A program made the translations under genes and the position numbers. The notes beneath the pieces are model-generated. The model was not told the DNA's origin. It was given only the letters and a program-made list of their open reading frames with translations, and did not search any database. Source: an uncultured Lachnospiraceae bacterium (lineage in GTDB: Bacteria > Bacillota > Clostridia > Lachnospirales > Lachnospiraceae). From it: a DNA stretch of 64,000 bases. Of this stretch, positions 1,695-27,932 are shown piece after piece; within the stretch, counting starts at the first letter, position 1, and every line of letters begins with the position of its first letter. The stretch is taken from the NCBI GenBank assembly GCA_902781655.1, contig CACZJZ010000003.1:1-64000 (forward strand), in the 5' to 3' direction.

Positions 1695-3089
1695 ATGAAA
1701 AAGGAACTGGTAGCAATCATCAGCTGTGCTGCGATGATGAGCAGCGTACTTGCCGGATGCGGTGTGTCGACAGATACCGGCACAGGCGGAGGAACTTCCG
1801 CTACGGCAGAGTCTTCTTCCACTGCAGAGACGGACAATGCGGCAGATGCATCTACGCAGACCGCTTCCAGCGGAGAGGTTGAAGAAATTCAATGGATGTT
1901 CTGGGACGATCTCGACGCCAGCTCGGATTTGATCACGCAGGGCTACAAGCAGGTGATTGACCGCTTCAATGAACAGTACAAGGGGCAGTATCACTGCACC
2001 GCGATTACCACGAATCTGGAGGAGTATGATACCAAGCTGAATGCCCTGATCGCGGCGGGAACTGCGCCGGATGTATGGATCTGCAATCCCGGACCAAACC
2101 TGACACAGTATGTGGAAGCAGGAGCGGCGGCGGATCTGACAGATATTCTCAAGAATCAAAATGCGGATTGGTATAACAGTTTTAACCAGAGCATGTTCGA
2201 GCGCCTGACCTATGACGACAAAATTATGGCGGTTCCGACAAACTTTGCTGCAGCGTTGTGCTTCTACAACACGGAAATCTTTGAAAAGGCTGGTATTGCC
2301 AATCCGCCGGAAACCTACGACGAACTGATCGAGGACTGCAAGAAGATCAAGGCGGCCGGGTATGACCCTATTTCCTGCTCTGCAGGAACAGCGTGGTGCC
2401 TGTCCATGGTAGCCGGATATCTCTGTGACCGGGAAGGCGGACCGGACAATCTGGCCGGGACGGCTGACGGGTCGGTGCAGTGGACAGATAAGACATTTAT
2501 TGATGCTGGAACCAAGCTGAAGGAACTGTCTCAGTATTTCCAGGACACGGCAGCAGGCGATTCCAATGATCAGGCCACGGCACTGTTCTATAATGGTCAG
2601 GCTGGAATTTTGATCCAGGGTTCCTGGGTCATCGCTCAGATCAATGGCAACAATCCGGACTTTGAGGATAAATGCGGTGTGTTCCGCTTCCCTGGCATCA
2701 CAGGAGGCGCAGACCCGAACCGCATGATTGTCAAGACGGATAATCTGGTTATGAGTGCCACGACAAAGCATCAGGATGCGGCGATTGCACTGATGAAGTG
2801 CTTCACGGACGATGCGGCTGAAAAGTACACCGCAGAGGTCGGAGGCAAAATCCCGGTCACTAATGTTGAGTTTGATGCCTCCAAGGCACCGAAGCAGCTG
2901 GGATATGTGCAGGATATTCTGAAGACGACGACCGGCACCTTTGGCTTCTACAATGAGTCTCTGGCCAGCGTCGAGGCGGGGGATACCTTCGATAATAACA
3001 TGGTGGATATCTACCTTGGAAATAAGACGCCGGAGCAGGCGTTTACAGCCATCAATGATTATTACAAGGATAATGTCTGGAACAAGTAA
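1695..3089 (+). CDS. Carbohydrate ABC transporter substrate-binding lipoprotein
   Basis: A 464-residue extracellular solute-binding protein of the CUT1 sugar type. The N-terminus is a lipoprotein signal with lipobox L-A-G-C, so Cys22 would be lipidated. A Ser/Thr/Ala-rich linker of about 40 residues follows, then the mature fold begins near EIQWMFWDD. Typical family stretches include AGTAPDVWICNPG and the C-terminal region with ALMKCFTDD. The start is fixed by AAGGAGGGG eight bases upstream. It leads an operon with two permeases and a GH120 enzyme; the substrate is therefore likely a pentose-containing oligosaccharide (inference). A strong hairpin right after the gene probably makes this subunit more abundant than the permeases. 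Confidence 0.92.
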   Translation: MKKELVAIISCAAMMSSVLAGCGVSTDTGTGGGTSATAESSSTAETDNAADASTQTASSGEVEEIQWMFWDDLDASSDLITQGYKQVIDRFNEQYKGQYHCTAITTNLEEYDTKLNALIAAGTAPDVWICNPGPNLTQYVEAGAAADLTDILKNQNADWYNSFNQSMFERLTYDDKIMAVPTNFAAALCFYNTEIFEKAGIANPPETYDELIEDCKKIKAAGYDPISCSAGTAWCLSMVAGYLCDREGGPDNLAGTADGSVQWTDKTFIDAGTKLKELSQYFQDTAAGDSNDQATALFYNGQAGILIQGSWVIAQINGNNPDFEDKCGVFRFPGITGGADPNRMIVKTDNLVMSATTKHQDAAIALMKCFTDDAAEKYTAEVGGKIPVTNVEFDASKAPKQLGYVQDILKTTTGTFGFYNESLASVEAGDTFDNNMVDIYLGNKTPEQAFTAINDYYKDNVWNK

Positions 3090-3100
3090 GCATGCCTGAC

Positions 3101-16309: not shown

Positions 16310-16556
16310 AGAGTCGTTTCCTCCGGAAACATTTTAATTTCTTTTACGGAAAATGCGCCTCACCTGGGATTCACAACGCATTTTGCCGCAGCCGCGTGAT
16401 TTGCGCGGCTGACCTGTCATTAGCATAATCCGCCAGACAGCTCTGCGCAACGTCCTCAGGTATGGTAAGATGGTGCCATATCGGACAGCGGGATTTTTGC
16501 AGGAGGTCGGGGAGACGATGCTGCAGCCCGCCGAAAGCAGCCGGGAGGGAAAAGGC

Positions 16557-17534
16557 ATGGAGGAAATGAAGGACCGGATTCAGATCGCGACCTGCGACAT
16601 TCTGCGGGACTATCTGAAGAAGCGGGATGTGGACAAGATGGATGTGTTCAGTCAGCCCGACACAGAAGTGGTGGAGGACATCCTGAAGAAGGTATTCATC
16701 ATTCTCTATCCTGGATATTACAGGGAGAAGACGTTCCGGATCTACCGGTATGACAATCGTATTTCGCTTCTGATCGAGGACATCAGCTACAATCTGCAGA
16801 AGCAGATCATGATCGCACTGAAGTTCCGGCCGGAATATCAGGACGTCTCGGAGGAGACCCTGCGCGCCCGCGCGGAGGGGATAGTGATTGCGTTCCTGAA
16901 GCGCATTCCGAAGGTGCGGGAATATCTCGACACGGATCTGCAGGCCTTTTTCGAGGGAGATCCGGCGGCGTACAATAAAGCGGAAATCGTCCTGTGTTAT
17001 CCGGGATTCATGGCGATCACCACGAACCGCATCGCACACGAGCTGTTTCTCCTGGGCGTTCCGCTGATTCCCCGCATGATGACGGAATATGCGCACAGCC
17101 ATACGGGAATCGATATTCATCCCGGCGCGACGATCGGCAAATATTTCTTCATGGATCACGGAACCGGCATCGTGGTCGGAGAGACGTCCATCATCGGCGA
17201 GCATGTGAAGGTGTATCAGGGCGTCACGATCGGTGCACTCTCGACCCGCGGCGGGCAGAGCCTGCGCGGGAAGAAGCGCCATCCCACGATTGAGGACAAT
17301 GTCACGATTTACGCAGGAGCCTCGATTCTCGGCGGCGACACGGTCATCGGGGCCGGCTCGGTCATCGGCTCCAACGTCTTCATCACCAGCAGCGTGAAAT
17401 CCGATTCCCGGATCAGCGTCAAGACGCAGGAGCTTCTGGTCAAGCGCCACGGAGAGATCCAGGAGGTGGAGCGGAAGGAGACAAAGATTCTCGACGAGAA
17501 CAATGACGAGACGCCGTGGTTCTATATCATATGA
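16557..17534 (+). CDS. cysE: Serine O-acetyltransferase (CysE/EpsC-type)
   Basis: A hexapeptide-repeat acetyltransferase that makes O-acetylserine for cysteine synthesis. About 150 residues of helical N-terminal domain precede the left-handed beta-helix. Motifs include HSHTGIDIHPGATIGKYFFM, DHGTGIVVGETSIIG and GVTIGALSTRGGQS, matching the clostridial long form of serine acetyltransferase. The C-terminus continues beyond the helix with a charged tail ending DENNDETPWFYII. I placed the start at 16557 (GGGAGGGA six bases upstream); ATG 16518, with AGGAGG eleven bases upstream, is a fair alternative. No Cys T-box or S-box is seen in its leader, only a small GC-rich hairpin near 16386-16414. Confidence 0.9.
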   Translation: MEEMKDRIQIATCDILRDYLKKRDVDKMDVFSQPDTEVVEDILKKVFIILYPGYYREKTFRIYRYDNRISLLIEDISYNLQKQIMIALKFRPEYQDVSEETLRARAEGIVIAFLKRIPKVREYLDTDLQAFFEGDPAAYNKAEIVLCYPGFMAITTNRIAHELFLLGVPLIPRMMTEYAHSHTGIDIHPGATIGKYFFMDHGTGIVVGETSIIGEHVKVYQGVTIGALSTRGGQSLRGKKRHPTIEDNVTIYAGASILGGDTVIGAGSVIGSNVFITSSVKSDSRISVKTQELLVKRHGEIQEVERKETKILDENNDETPWFYII

Positions 17535-21272: not shown

Positions 21273-22214
21273 ATGAAATCTCAGTATACGTTGATCGCGT
21301 TCGATATGGATGGAACACTGCTCGACCCGGCGAAGGAAATTCTGCCGCAGACCCGCGAGGCAGTGCGCAGGGCAGCGAAAGAAGGCAAAATCGTTGCCCT
21401 TTGTACCGGAAGAGCCCTGGCTGAGGTCAGGCCGTATCTGGATGCCGGGGACCTGGAGGGAGTGCGGTACGCCGTTCTCTGCAGCGGCTCTCTGATCTAT
21501 GATCTGGCGGCGCGCAGGATGATCGGCCATACGGTGTTCACAGGCCGGGAGACGGCAGAAATTCTGGAAGCGTTGCGCGGGCGGAATGTGCAGGCACAGC
21601 TTCTCTCCGGCGGCAGGGCAGTTCTCTCCCGGCGCGCGTTTCAGCACCTGAAGGAGTATGGCATGGACCAGTACGCGGCGCTCTACCGGGACACGGCGGC
21701 TGTGGCGGAGGACACGGCGGAGATGCTGCAGAGGGGAGACATCTCCTGTGAAAAAATCAATCTCTGGCATGCGGACTGTCCGGAAGAGGGACGCACGGCA
21801 GCGGAGGAACGGACAGTCACGGAGGAGAAGCTCGCCGGCACAGGGCTTGTTCTCGCCCGCGCGGAGCGGTCCAATCTGGAGATCAATCCGCCGGGAACCG
21901 ACAAAGGGGCCGGATTGTCATCTCTGTGCAGAATACTCCGCCTTCCGATGGAGCAGGTGATCGCGGTCGGCGACGCGGAGAATGACCGCAATATGTTTGC
22001 ATGTGCCGGCCTTGCGGTGGCGATGGGCAATGCGGCTCCGGAAATCCGGAAGCTGTGCGGTGTGACCGTGGCGGACAATGCGCACGACGGCTGCGCGGAG
22101 GCAGTGGACCTGCTGCTGGGCGGCAGAGGAGGGGAATTCTTTCCGGGTCAGGCGGGAGCGGACGAAACAGGAACAGAGGGAGTGGGGGAAGCAGCGGAGC
22201 AGGTTCGCAAATAA
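21273..22214 (+). CDS. HAD superfamily Cof-type phosphatase
   Basis: A 313-residue HAD-IIB (Cof) hydrolase. Motif I is FDMDGTLLDP near residue 10, with the nucleophile Asp; motif II is around ALCTGRAL; the terminal motif is AVGDAENDRNMF with the Mg2+-binding acids. The large C2-type cap lies between. Family members dephosphorylate sugar phosphates or pyridoxal phosphate; the substrate is not predictable. A Gly/Glu-rich tail of about 35 residues (after LLLGGRGGEFFPG) extends past the usual end. The stop at 22214 is only 25 bases before the -35 of the T-box transcript, so the genes are separate units. Confidence 0.9.
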   Translation: MKSQYTLIAFDMDGTLLDPAKEILPQTREAVRRAAKEGKIVALCTGRALAEVRPYLDAGDLEGVRYAVLCSGSLIYDLAARRMIGHTVFTGRETAEILEALRGRNVQAQLLSGGRAVLSRRAFQHLKEYGMDQYAALYRDTAAVAEDTAEMLQRGDISCEKINLWHADCPEEGRTAAEERTVTEEKLAGTGLVLARAERSNLEINPPGTDKGAGLSSLCRILRLPMEQVIAVGDAENDRNMFACAGLAVAMGNAAPEIRKLCGVTVADNAHDGCAEAVDLLLGGRGGEFFPGQAGADETGTEGVGEAAEQVRK

Positions 22215-22239
22215 TGGCCGAATGGAAGCAAAATTTAAC

Positions 22240-22268
22240 TTGACGCTCCGGGCGGGGCGGCCTACAAT
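22240..22268 (+). promoter_or_regulatory. Sigma-A promoter of the T-box leader
   Basis: TTGACG at 22240-22245 and TACAAT at 22263-22268 are separated by exactly 17 bases. This predicts transcription starting near 22275, which places the whole T-box leader in the transcript. Confidence 0.85.
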
Positions 22269-22274
22269 CGACAT

Positions 22275-22605
22275 CACAAAAGCACATGAGGACCGGCTGT
22301 GAAGAGAACAGTCCCGGAAACGAATGCTGCAGAGAGCTGCCGGACGATGCGAGACAGCGCAGGACTTCCGTGGAGAATCATCTCTGAGCTTCGGTGCTGA
22401 ACAGGAGACCGGATGATTTCGGCAGTACCAGAGTAAGCGCCGACGGAGGATCACCGTTATCATAGATCACGCATTGCTGGATGCGGCTGAGTGGCTGTCG
22501 CTGTGAGGCGGCAGCAAGGAAGAGTGGTACCGCAGAGGAAGTATGGTAAAGCCTCTGTCTCTTCCCGGAATCGAATCGGATTCCGGGAAGAGACAGAGGC
22601 TTTTT
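22275..22605 (+). promoter_or_regulatory. T-box riboswitch, predicted specifier AUC (tRNA-Ile)
   Basis: The leader carries the T-box motif AGAGTGGTACCGC at 22521-22533, with UGGU at 22525-22528 able to pair with tRNA ending ACCA. In Stem I, AGAGA (22303-22307) pairs with TCTCT (22381-22385) below the specifier loop, and CGGAA (22315-22319) pairs with TTCCG (22366-22370) above it. Between them the 3' strand reads GTGGAGAATCA: codon ATC at 22377-22379 followed by the conserved purine. This is the same geometry as B. subtilis glyQS (GGC-A then the lower helix). tRNA-Ile has A as discriminator base, consistent with the U of UGGU. CAGAGAGCTG near 22330 fits the distal AG-bulge. The terminator overlaps the 3' end. 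It controls the BASS transporter. Confidence 0.88.
22548..22605 (+). terminator. T-box terminator hairpin
   Basis: Bases 22548-22572 and 22579-22603 form a perfect 25-bp stem with loop GAATCG, ending in a run of five T. It immediately follows the T-box motif, as expected of the terminator form of a T-box leader. Uncharged tRNA would favour the antiterminator and read-through into the transporter gene. Confidence 0.9.
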
Positions 22606-22675
22606 GTCGGTTTCTCAGCTCTGCTTTGTCATATCCAAGGCACGCCGCGGAAGCCTGCGGCAGAAAGGCAAAAGC

Positions 22676-23641
22676 ATGAAAACACTGGAAAAAGTAAGCA
22701 ATTTCGTCGGGAAGTGGATGGCGCTCATCGTTCTCGGTGTGGCTGCCCTCGCGTTCTTCGCGCCGCAGACCTGTACCTGGATCAAGACGAGCTGGATCAA
22801 CTGGCTGCTCGGCATCGTCATGTTCGGCATGGGTCTCACCCTGAAGGCCTCGGATTTTGCCGAGGTATTCAAGAGACCGAAGGATGTGGTGCTCGGCGCG
22901 GTCTGTCAGTTCACCCTGATGCCGCTCCTTGCCTTCCTGCTCTGCAAGGTCTTCCACCTGTCTCCGGAGCTGACCATCGGTGTCATCCTCGTCGGCACCT
23001 GCCCCGGCGGCACTTCCTCCAATGTCATGACTTACCTGAGCCACGGCGATGTGCCGCTTTCTGTCTCCATGACCGCGGTGTCCACACTGCTCGCGCCGCT
23101 CATGACTCCGTTCCTGACTCTGGTCTATGCCGGCAAGACGGTTGATGTCAACTTCTGGGCGATGTTCGTGTCCGTCCTCAAGGTTGTGTTCCTTCCGATC
23201 ATCCTCGGGCTGGTTGTGAACCATTTCTTCGGCAAATTCACCGAGAAGGCAGCCAAGGCACTTCCGCTTGTTTCCACGACCGCGATTGTCATGATCGTCG
23301 CGGCTGTCGTATCCGTGAACTCGGATCGTCTGAAGACGGTCGGCGGACTCATCGTCGTCGTCGTGATGCTGCACAACCTGCTCGGTTACCTCACCGGCTA
23401 TCTGGTGGCGAAGGCACTCCGGCTCGACACCACCAAGTGCCGCGCGATCTCCATCGAGGTCGGCATGCAGAATTCCGGCCTTGCAACGAGTCTTGCGGCG
23501 ACGCATTTTGCCCAGTACCCGCTGGCGACTGTCCCGGGCGCCGTGTTCTCCGTGTGGCATAACATCTCCGGTGCGCTGCTCGCCGCCTTCTTCAATCGTC
23601 GGTCTATGAAGCAGGCCGCAAAGGAAAAGGCTGAGGCCTGA
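22676..23641 (+). CDS. BASS (bile acid:sodium symporter) family transporter under T-box control
   Basis: A 321-residue membrane protein with about nine to ten hydrophobic segments. Characteristic stretches are GIVMFGMGLTLKASDF, the crossover region VGTCPGGTSSNVMTYL, and EVGMQNSGLATSLA, all typical of the BASS superfamily. Start 22676 is preferred over 22604, since the latter lies in the terminator and 22676 has an AGAAAGG site. BASS proteins move organic anions with Na+; relatives include PanS (ketopantoate) and plant BAT5 (2-oxo acids). The isoleucine T-box upstream suggests the substrate is isoleucine-related, such as a branched-chain 2-oxo acid. That assignment is inference. Confidence 0.92.
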   Translation: MKTLEKVSNFVGKWMALIVLGVAALAFFAPQTCTWIKTSWINWLLGIVMFGMGLTLKASDFAEVFKRPKDVVLGAVCQFTLMPLLAFLLCKVFHLSPELTIGVILVGTCPGGTSSNVMTYLSHGDVPLSVSMTAVSTLLAPLMTPFLTLVYAGKTVDVNFWAMFVSVLKVVFLPIILGLVVNHFFGKFTEKAAKALPLVSTTAIVMIVAAVVSVNSDRLKTVGGLIVVVVMLHNLLGYLTGYLVAKALRLDTTKCRAISIEVGMQNSGLATSLAATHFAQYPLATVPGAVFSVWHNISGALLAAFFNRRSMKQAAKEKAEA

Positions 23642-23686: not shown

Positions 23687-23730
23687 AACCGCCGGACGCA
23701 GGAAATACCTGCGCCCGGCGGTTTTTTTTG
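23687..23730. terminator. Bidirectional terminator between convergent genes
   Basis: AACCGCCGG-A-CGCAGG and CCTGCG-C-CCGGCGGTT form a 16-position stem with one internal mismatch and loop AAATA. It is flanked by eight T on the plus strand and by a T-rich stretch on the minus strand, so it serves both the BASS gene and the GH127 gene. Confidence 0.88.
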
Positions 23731-25917: not shown

Positions 25918-26910
25918 ATGAAAATATTTTTCTACACGCTCCGTGAATTTGATGAGCTTGCCTGTGCAAAGGAATGCAGCGCGAAGACTGGCATTGCCTT
26001 CGATTACACCACTGCTTATCCGAGCGCGGAGAACGCTGCGCTCGCCCAGGGATATGAAGCAATTTCCATGACGCCGTGCGATATGTCTGCGCCGATGCTT
26101 GAGCGTTTTGCCTCGATCGGTGTGAAGTACCTGCTCTGCCGTTCCATCGGCTACGATCATGTCGACCTCAGAAGAGCGCGTGAACTCGGCATGCGGGTCT
26201 CAAATGTCAGCTATCCGCCGTCCGGCGTCGCCAATTATGCCATCATGCTGATGCTCATGCTGCAGCGACGCGCCGTCTCCATTCTCGACCGTGCCAGACT
26301 CCAGGACTACTCGCTGCGCGGCAAAATCGGTGCGGACATCAGCTTTGAGACGGTGGGGGTCATCGGTACCGGCCATATCGGCACCACTGTCATTCAGCAT
26401 CTGTCGGGCTTTGGCTGCAAAATCCTCTGCTACGATCCCTACCGGAATTCGGAGGCGGAAAAATACGCGGATTATGTTTCTCTGGAGGAGCTGTTTGCCC
26501 GCGCGGATGTGATCACCCTGCACACCAACGCGACGGAGCAGAACTATCATTTGCTGAACCGCGAGGCGTTCGCCAGGATGAAGGATGGCGTGCTGATTGT
26601 TAACACCGCCCGCGGCAAGCTGATTGATACTGACGCTCTGGTGGAGGCGCTCGAGAGCGGCAAAATCGGCGGCGCGGCTCTCGATGTGCTCGAGAAGGAG
26701 GACGGTCTTTATTACTACAATCGTATCGGCGACGTGATCGCGAACCGCGATATGGCGCTGCTGCGCTCCTTCCCGAACGTGATCCTGAGTCCGCACACGG
26801 CCTTCTACACGGAGCAGGCGGTCTCCCATATGGTCGGCAGCTGTTTTGAAGCGGCGCAGGCCTTCGACAGAGGGGAGGAGTCAGCACATGAGGTGAAGAT
26901 CAAAGTGTGA
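25918..26910 (+). CDS. D-lactate dehydrogenase-like D-2-hydroxyacid dehydrogenase
   Basis: A 330-residue NAD-dependent D-isomer-specific dehydrogenase. The Rossmann motif is VGVIGTGHIGTTVI; catalytic residues appear as Arg in VNTARGKLID, Glu in DVLEKEDG, and His in LSPHTAFYTEQA. The closing SPHTAFYTEQAV and the YPPSGVANYAIMLMLM region match the D-LDH/VanH/D-hydroxyisocaproate group rather than phosphoglycerate dehydrogenase. It likely reduces pyruvate or another 2-oxo acid to the D-hydroxy acid in fermentation. RBS AGGAGAGGAG precedes the ATG. A second dehydrogenase gene starts 29 bases after it, so they are probably one operon. Confidence 0.9.
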   Translation: MKIFFYTLREFDELACAKECSAKTGIAFDYTTAYPSAENAALAQGYEAISMTPCDMSAPMLERFASIGVKYLLCRSIGYDHVDLRRARELGMRVSNVSYPPSGVANYAIMLMLMLQRRAVSILDRARLQDYSLRGKIGADISFETVGVIGTGHIGTTVIQHLSGFGCKILCYDPYRNSEAEKYADYVSLEELFARADVITLHTNATEQNYHLLNREAFARMKDGVLIVNTARGKLIDTDALVEALESGKIGGAALDVLEKEDGLYYYNRIGDVIANRDMALLRSFPNVILSPHTAFYTEQAVSHMVGSCFEAAQAFDRGEESAHEVKIKV

Positions 26911-26939
26911 CGCCGCAATCAAGCGGCAGGGGGAGTGGT

Positions 26940-27932
26940 ATGGAGAAAATATGGAGAGTACTGTCGGTGCTGCCGTTGGAGCAGCGCCACAGGGAATATC
27001 TGCAGCAGGCTGCCGGTGGAGAGGCAGCCTGCACATTCCGATGGAAAAGCTACGCGTCGGTGACGCCGGAGGATGTCGCCTGGGCGGATGTGATTCTGGG
27101 AAATGTCCCACCGGCGCTGGTGGCGGAGTGCGCCGGCGCGGGCGCGGAGAAGAGTCATCTCTGCTGGATGCAGCTGAATTCCGCCGGCGCGGATGCGTAC
27201 GCCGGACCGGAGGTGCTGCGGCCGGAAACCATCCTCACCTGCAGCAAGGGCGCCTATGGCGTCAGCGTCTCGGAGCATATGTTGACGATGACATTCTGCC
27301 TTATACGCAGGATGGATCAGTATCTGCGGCAGCAGGTGCGTCACGAATGGAAAACGGCGGGCGCGGTCACCAGTCTGCAGGGATCGGTGGTTCTGGTCCT
27401 CGGCCTGGGAGATATCGGCGGCCGGTACGCCAGAATGTGCCATGCGCTCGGCGCCCGCGTCATCGGTGTCAGGCGATCGGTCCGGGGAGAACGGCCCGAC
27501 TGGCTCGAGGAGGAGCACACGATGGAGGATCTGGACGAGCTGCTCCCGCGGGCGGATATTGTTGCCATGATCCTGCCCGGCGGACCGGCCACGGAGCATG
27601 TGATGGATGAGCGGCGGCTCCGTCTGATGAAGCCGGGGGCCTATCTCATCAATGATGGGCGCGGGAATGCCATTGATCCTGCGGCATTGAAGAAGGTGCT
27701 GCGTGAGGGCCATCTCGGAGGAGCGGCGCTGGATGTTACAGAGCCGGAGCCGCTCCCGGCGGACGACGCGCTCTGGGATATGGACCGGGTGATCATCACC
27801 CCGCACATCGCCGGTCAGTTTCTGCTCGCCGAAACCTTTGAGAATGTGGTCCGGATTGCGGGGGAGAATCTCCGTGCCTTTGTCAGCGGCGCGCCGCTTC
27901 AGCATGTAGTTGATCGGAAAGCAGGCTACTAG
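26940..27932 (+). CDS. D-2-hydroxyacid dehydrogenase family protein
   Basis: A 330-residue dehydrogenase of the same superfamily but a different branch from its neighbour. Motifs are VLVLGLGDIGGRYARM (nucleotide binding), LINDGRGNAIDPAAL with the catalytic Arg, DVTEPEPLPADDALW with Glu, and ITPHIAGQF with His. The shape is that of glyoxylate/hydroxypyruvate or phosphoglycerate-type enzymes. The substrate is not determined. ATG 26940 has GGGGGAG five bases upstream and removes a short leader from the longer frame. Confidence 0.88.
   Translation: MEKIWRVLSVLPLEQRHREYLQQAAGGEAACTFRWKSYASVTPEDVAWADVILGNVPPALVAECAGAGAEKSHLCWMQLNSAGADAYAGPEVLRPETILTCSKGAYGVSVSEHMLTMTFCLIRRMDQYLRQQVRHEWKTAGAVTSLQGSVVLVLGLGDIGGRYARMCHALGARVIGVRRSVRGERPDWLEEEHTMEDLDELLPRADIVAMILPGGPATEHVMDERRLRLMKPGAYLINDGRGNAIDPAALKKVLREGHLGGAALDVTEPEPLPADDALWDMDRVIITPHIAGQFLLAETFENVVRIAGENLRAFVSGAPLQHVVDRKAGY

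Follow-up and report, generated by a model that had tools for sequence, protein, structure and literature searches.

The best-studied members of the BASS family carry bile acids or vitamin B5 precursors, and carriers of the kind described here are called bile acid:sodium symporter in the NCBI family model. Transporters under T-box control are known as well. In the available portion of Wels 2008 (PMC2494555), they belong to seven families, MFS, APC, NSS, DAACS, LIVCS, NhaC and ABC, and isoleucine T-boxes are tabulated on ABC and LIVCS transporters. The locus of an uncultured Lachnospiraceae bacterium that we analysed has the Stem I AUC specifier, the antiterminator with a UGGN bulge and the competing terminator of known isoleucine T-boxes (ileS, LIVCS-type), but its target is a BASS carrier, outside these seven families. 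Limited literature searches, with the TBDB tables and two T-box reviews outside their scope, found no paper that names a BASS gene as a T-box target, in agreement with an earlier note on this DNA that could recall no described case. The portions of PMC12452182 and PMC5171806 that were available hold no such case, and TBDB, to judge from part of its description, may list such leaders automatically (PMC7778990). The mechanism is ordinary; what is new is the family to which the target belongs, together with the substrate that this control implies.

Among described carriers, the nearest solved protein is ASBT_NM of Neisseria meningitidis (3ZUX, 8OYF, 8OYG), found in a sequence search as PDB 3zuy with E 2.1e-96. 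A structure model of the transporter (pLDDT 86.2) matched 8oyf, 3zux and 8oyg in Foldseek, with 53% identity to ASBT_NM over 307 columns and a TM score of 0.80. Unlike ASBT_NM, the transporter studied here is under predicted tRNA-Ile regulation, and its host lacks matches to panB and panC. The equivalog model of Salmonella PanS, NF047939, matched at near full length with 300.4 bits and did not reach its cut-off of 400 bits; other relatives are likewise below it, for example that of Geobacillus with 305 bits. Plant BASS5/BAT5, a 2-oxo-acid carrier, belongs to the same family, and its kind of substrate is what the earlier note had proposed. Our reading, which we hold to be probable, is that a tRNA-Ile T-box controls a BASS transporter that most likely imports a 2-hydroxy or 2-oxo acid of the isoleucine pathway.

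The leader and the transporter gene

The window is a stretch of 64,000 nucleotides from one contig of the host genome, and Table 1 lists the features of the locus. A complete transcriptional T-box leader lies upstream of the BASS gene. In a cmscan of 22200-22720 it matched RF00230 over the full model length with 85 bits (E 4.6e-19), which is below the Rfam gathering score of 93, and therefore a scan of the whole window at that threshold lists nothing. It is the top scorer among the six T-boxes of the host genome. BASS leaders of the same genus scored 118, 117, 105, 102 and 87 bits (L167, L168, L172, L174 and L176), and low scores were obtained for two others, 58 bits (G028:C13) and 36 bits (L013). 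The last of these, at L013:1101-1319 in genome G040, keeps Stem I with AUC, and its T-box half has decayed. The fold of the whole window leader has a z-score of -5.5, and 0 of 100 shuffled sequences were equally stable. By eye, TTGACA-like sequences occupy the promoter position in many of the aligned leaders, though not in all. The covariance model, folding and shuffling thus recovered the promoter, Stem I, ATC specifier, UGGU and 25-bp terminator that had been claimed earlier from the letters alone.

Table 1. Positions in the window of the leader elements and of the transporter gene.
Feature	Position	Strand	Details
Sigma-70-type promoter, TTGACG-17-TACAAT	22240-22268	+	1 found vs 0.1 expected in shuffles
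T-box leader RNA, transcriptional type	22290-22565	+	RF00230, model 1-219/219
Stem I basal helix, 5' strand AGAGA	22303-22307	+	pairs with 22381-22385
Specifier codon AUC (Ile)	22377-22379	+	next base A at 22380
Stem I basal helix, 3' strand TCTCT	22381-22385	+	pairs with 22303-22307
Antiterminator with two 7-bp helices and, between them, a 7-nt bulge	22518-22565	+	-17.3 kcal/mol, z -2.9
Antiterminator bulge UGGUACC, predicted partner of the tRNA ACCA end	22525-22531	+	
Intrinsic terminator, 25 bp, then U-tract	22548-22603	+	-49.9 kcal/mol, z -10.2
BASS-family (SBF, PanS/ASBT_NM-like) transporter gene, 321 aa	22676-23641	+	ATG 22676 to stop 23641
Likely terminator 3' of the transporter gene (inverted repeat and T-run)	23689-23729	+	by eye

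The antiterminator and the terminator are mutually exclusive because strand 22552-22565 is common to both. In the proposed mechanism, when tRNA-Ile is charged the leader would fold the 25-bp terminator and transcription would stop. Uncharged tRNA-Ile would pair through its GAU anticodon with AUC and through its ACCA end with UGGU. This pairing would let the antiterminator form, and the transporter would be made.

The transporter matches Pfam SBF (PF01758) with E 9.8e-53 and 179 bits against a cut-off of 24.3, and TIGR00841 with 305 bits, under the cut-off of 326. The SBF domain and the ASBT-like fold bear out the BASS-family target that had been proposed. A longer mechanical open reading frame begins at TTG 22604; the ATG was taken as the start because close homologues begin at ATG. 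The likely terminator behind the gene means that the transporter is probably monocistronic, and the next large open reading frame with a family match lies on the opposite strand. The host genome comprises 2.76 Mb and is 99.5% complete, and at least 60 further species have been sampled in the same genus. A transporter with 100% identity is also found on a contig of uncultured Lachnospiraceae RUG554, and the homologue of Lachnospiraceae bacterium NK3A20 has 77% identity.

Gene neighbourhood was considered as a clue to the substrate and set aside, as no neighbour was shared beside 10 relatives by eye. Two adjacent D-2-hydroxyacid dehydrogenase-like genes (25918-26910 and 26907-27932) lie 2.3 kb downstream of the transporter; the first is VanH/D-lactate dehydrogenase-like, the second was assigned by eye, and inspection of the 10 relatives by eye showed no such pair. 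About 5 kb upstream, at 16470-17534, is a serine acetyltransferase-like gene (CysE/EpsC type) that scores just under the EpsC cut-off.

Specifier codon and distribution of the T-box among BASS genes

Three tests bear on the identity of the codon. A register test fixed the 3' strand of the basal helix after AUC plus one base and took the best 5' strand near the leader start. All four basal pairs formed in 24 of the 25 script-placed leaders in a set of 28; L217 was poorly placed (two of four pairs), and three further leaders were unplaced. The core of the basal helix covaries in five combinations: GAGA/UCUC, GAGG/CCUC (which includes one GAGG/CCUU), GAAA/UUUC, AAGA/UCUU and AAGG/CCUU. The five other T-boxes of the host served as a control for the specifier position. 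In front of the trpX-like, pheS, thrS, valS and trpE genes, the same position reads UGG, UUC, ACC, GUC and UGG, respectively; these codons were read by eye, and the script agrees for four and misplaces pheS. In a wider control of 16 T-boxes of the host and relatives whose gene is unambiguous, the script returned the expected amino acid for 15 and reading by eye did so for pheS; the gene names were confirmed for 8 and assigned by eye for the others. The BASS leader is the only isoleucine reader among the six T-boxes of the host. The isoleucine specificity proposed earlier is supported by AUC at the position where the controls give their expected amino acids.

The tRNA side points the same way. 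In the genomes of two relatives, tRNA-Ile(GAU) has discriminator A, which fits UGGU as had been supposed; among the host tRNA matches that were typed, a part of the whole, the host's own tRNA-Ile was not found. The tRNA-Trp discriminator is G, for which UGGC would be expected. Four Trp-type leaders of relatives (L160, L170, L173 and L175), which precede genes for ABC substrate-binding proteins, combine a UGG codon with UGGU. These leaders show that a G-U match occurs, so the discriminator argument is only supportive.

The alternative to be weighed here is a UCN specifier, read as serine, in place of AUC. The base after AUC is A, C or G in 20, 6 and 2 of the 28 leaders, and serine would be read from each of UCA, UCC and UCG; to judge from the Trp-type leaders, UGGU might also go with a G discriminator. 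However, the helix register puts AUC at the specifier, the 16 control T-boxes yield their expected amino acids in that register, and UGGU, which is present in 27/27 T-box-bearing leaders of the 28-leader set and in 8/8 further leaders, is a better fit to the A of tRNA-Ile than to the G that is the discriminator of both host tRNA-Ser species (UGA and GGA). We consider a serine specifier extremely improbable. The earlier note had named UCA in the specifier position and orthologous leaders with other codons as observations that would speak against isoleucine. The register and the UGGU speak for AUC in the first case, and no leader of the second kind was found: a pattern that leaves the codon free gave AUC in 23/23 readable rows, 21 of them distinct.

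Isoleucine leaders recur on related BASS genes. A family sample of 299 Lachnospiraceae genomes yielded 38 BASS homologues at E <= 1e-70, located in 36 of the genomes. The covariance model found a T-box at 19 of the 38 (the window; L190-L193, L199 and L201; L214, L215, L217 and L218; L253-L260) and none at 18; the remaining homologue, L203, has only 217 bases upstream and is uninformative. All 19 leaders have AUC and UGGU; several leaders of the divergent group called clade C below and L192 were read by eye for AUC, and the codon-free pattern gave the same reading for L192. The 28-leader set, to which the window and 10 others of the 19 belong, fits a pattern with AUC fixed in 28/28 cases, and the 8 further leaders have AUC by eye. 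The leader of L039 is truncated before Stem I. Agreeing relatives found by name are Clostridium transplantifaecale, Faecalibacterium prausnitzii and Enterocloster and Merdimonas MAGs. Genome G066 has two BASS genes (L161 and L180), each with its own isoleucine T-box.

Homologues of the same genus with about 60% identity or more distant were without a T-box in 10/10 covariance scans (L014, L015, L017-L020, L023, L025, L026 and L029). Homologues from Bacteroidales, Selenomonadaceae, Bacillaceae, Coriobacteria and Helicobacter gave no T-box by text pattern. Absence by text pattern alone is soft because this pattern missed the T-boxes of L045, L191, L214, L215 and L217, which wider patterns and the covariance scan recovered. 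In a class-wide sample of 392 genomes, 0 of 16 further BASS loci had a T-box (L225 repeats L209), and the link is therefore confined to Lachnospiraceae and Faecalibacterium as far as seen. In another Clostridia genome, a SAM riboswitch lies just 3' of a BASS homologue (L232:1215-1310, minus strand) and probably belongs to the next gene.

In a tree of 67 rows, the T-box members fall into three groups: clade A, which contains the window; clade B, with L199 and L201; and clade C (L214-L218), whose branch has a length of 2.67 changes per site. Clade C proteins have 42-48% identity to the window protein (45-47% in four aligned members). L253-L260 are outside the tree and were placed with clade C because of their identity (42-45%) and pocket. 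The T-box label requires 8 changes on the tree, a number that 0 of 500 shuffles matched or undercut, and 6 of the changes are forced by well-supported branches; these may be overcounted by one or two, since the uninformative L203 and the decayed L013 were scored as T-box-free. Inside the clades, no T-box was found at L048 (by text pattern) and L194 in clade A, or at L216 in clade C. That BASS genes so distantly related share one amino acid signal, whether it was attached to them or kept on them, argues for a common role in isoleucine supply.

Substrate pocket, metabolic setting and candidate substrates

In ASBT_NM, pantoate is contacted by Thr112, Ala113, Asn265, Gly267, His294 and Asn295, partly through the main chain, and Ile203 and Ile47 are nearest to it from the other domain (PMC10645422, cited here and below from part of its text). 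The window protein has Thr113, Ser, Asn266, Gly268, His295, Asn296, Ile and Val at these sites. Thus Thr112, Asn265, Gly267, His294, Asn295 and Ile203 of ASBT_NM are kept, and Ser and Val replace Ala113 and Ile47. The same residues occur in 22 rows of clade A and 3 of clade B, one row being cut short at its end, and judging from them the clade A pocket is that of a pantoate carrier. In 13/13 clade C proteins checked, Val replaces Thr112, Leu replaces Ile203, Ala replaces Ser266 and Ser replaces Asn295, whereas Asn265 and His294 are kept. A new substrate would not follow from this changed pocket, and binding of pantoate by clade C is still conceivable, because a Thr112-to-Val change raised the pantoate affinity of ASBT_NM (PMC10645422).

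Ser114 and Asn115 of ASBT_NM are sodium ligands (PMC10645422). The corresponding Ser115 and Asn116 are present in the window protein together with Gln78, Glu261 and Gln265, and all are kept in clade A. We take the last three to be sodium-site residues as well, and the transporter is probably sodium-coupled.

In the plant BASS proteins, BASS1 excepted, Ser and Gln occupy the positions of Asn265 and Thr112, and the authors suggest that these residues may allow keto acids in the 2-oxo-acid carriers (PMC10645422). Compared with this description, which covers BASS5/BAT5, the window protein has Asn266 and Thr113 and so lacks the pair of the BASS2/5/6 type. The retained Asn/Thr pair tips the balance mildly towards a 2-hydroxy rather than a 2-oxo acid. 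The pocket leaves 2-oxo acids possible, because ketopantoate is a reported substrate of PanS alongside pantoate (PMC10645422, introduction). For the suggested importer of a branched-chain 2-oxo or hydroxy acid this would shift the weight, in that the hydroxy acid gains slightly and the 2-oxo acid, which the earlier note had stressed, is mildly less favoured.

Pathway genes were searched in 43 genomes, 19 of them of clade A, with clades B and C outside the panB/panC search; the clade A set includes G040, whose leader is decayed, and G000 and G006, which share an identical transporter. The host gave no panB or panC match, which does not fit PanS-type use of pantoate or ketopantoate. Over the cut-off, panB was absent in 18/19 and panC in 19/19 clade A genomes (G037 has one fragment of 19.5 bits); these absences are soft because the genomes are mostly MAGs. 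Clade A genomes have ilvC in 17/19 and threonine ammonia-lyase over the cut-off in 18/19. In the host, ilvH-, ilvC- and leuC-like genes lie together (ilvC by search, the others by eye). In the same genus, a T-box-free group with about 60% identity and the same pocket was without panB and panC in 9/9 searched genomes, so absence of the pathway is not special to T-box members. Only 2 of the 43 genomes (G029 and G071) have panC over the cut-off, and the BASS genes of both are without a T-box. The BASS gene of G071, L048, belongs to clade A and has no T-box by text pattern; panB and panC are both over the cut-off in this genome and in only one other of the 43. Citramalate synthase searches gave matches in 41/43 genomes, 0 of them over the cut-off.

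The pocket and the metabolic setting bear on what the transporter might carry. A PanS-like importer of pantoate, ketopantoate or pantothenate could come under isoleucine control if the shared use of IlvC and IlvD by CoA precursors and branched-chain amino acids were the reason. The best structural match, ASBT_NM, was also solved with pantoate, the contact residues kept in clades A and B are those listed above except Ile203, NF047939 gives 300 bits, and the host, likely a pantothenate auxotroph, would need pantothenate. Against this, the score misses the PanS cut-off by 100 bits, although other relatives fall short of it too; pantoate and ketopantoate would be dead ends where panB and panC are absent, as they are in the host and in most of the searched genomes of clade A; ASBT_NM bound pantoate, and ketopantoate and pantothenate gave no stabilisation (PMC10645422); clade C, also under isoleucine control, has an altered pocket; and an Ile-tRNA signal is odd for a vitamin. 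Import of pantoate or pantothenate was accordingly lowered from a main reading, because of the missing panB and panC, to one that we regard as unlikely.

2-Oxobutyrate is specific to the isoleucine branch, and import of this or another short 2-oxo acid upstream of IlvC, or of 2-methylbutyrate for reductive carboxylation, would also explain an isoleucine signal. Among plant BASS proteins there are carriers of acids the size of pyruvate or glycolate (PMC10645422). However, the host has a threonine ammonia-lyase (448 bits) and can therefore make 2-oxobutyrate, 2-methylbutyrate is without the 2-oxygen bound by the ASBT_NM site, and His295 and Asn296 point to a substrate with a second polar group; such short acids appear distinctly unlikely. 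The sequence leaves the direction of transport unfixed, and the carrier might instead export what accumulates during isoleucine shortage, be it a toxic by-product or a branched-chain intermediate. The sodium-site residues kept in clade A fit sodium-driven uptake, and T-box transporters are filed under amino acid transport in the available portion of Wels 2008 (PMC2494555), so that we give export only a slight chance.

The import of an isoleucine-pathway acid, which we favour, would supply isoleucine synthesis with a small, branched acid of the 2-hydroxy or 2-oxo type, with 2,3-dihydroxy-3-methylpentanoate, 2-hydroxy-3-methylpentanoate and 3-methyl-2-oxopentanoate as candidates. 2,3-Dihydroxy-3-methylpentanoate is the substrate of IlvD and an isomer of pantoate, C6H12O4. 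Because it has the same formula as pantoate, it is the boldest candidate. We suggest, tentatively and as a long shot, that clade A imports (2R,3R)-2,3-dihydroxy-3-methylpentanoate or its mono-hydroxy cousin through a pantoate-type pocket reused for isoleucine salvage, and that clade C takes a related, less polar acid. 3-Methyl-2-oxopentanoate, which the earlier note had named, is a possible substrate.

Isoleucine switches and gut BASS carriers

One further leader was seen on another organic-anion carrier. In genome G070, a T-box with the leucine specifier CUG and UGGU (L185:1490-1750) precedes a carrier of the CitMHS/MatC family (1855-3093), and the same genome also has a BASS gene with an isoleucine T-box and no ilvC match. 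This may be a parallel case for leucine.

BASS carriers of gut bacteria are commonly called bile acid:sodium symporters, and an isoleucine switch in three clades speaks for isoleucine supply. It suggests that the transporter imports an isoleucine precursor rather than bile acids or vitamin B5 precursors, and it narrows the substrates to a short, testable list. Annotation would change in many genomes, for example those of F. prausnitzii and of Enterocloster and Merdimonas MAGs. Should the transported compound prove to be a branched hydroxy or oxo acid, this would point to cross-feeding of amino acid skeletons in the rumen and gut. On the long-shot reading given above for clades A and C, bacteria of these habitats would exchange late branched-chain intermediates, and isoleucine T-boxes would mark the carriers.
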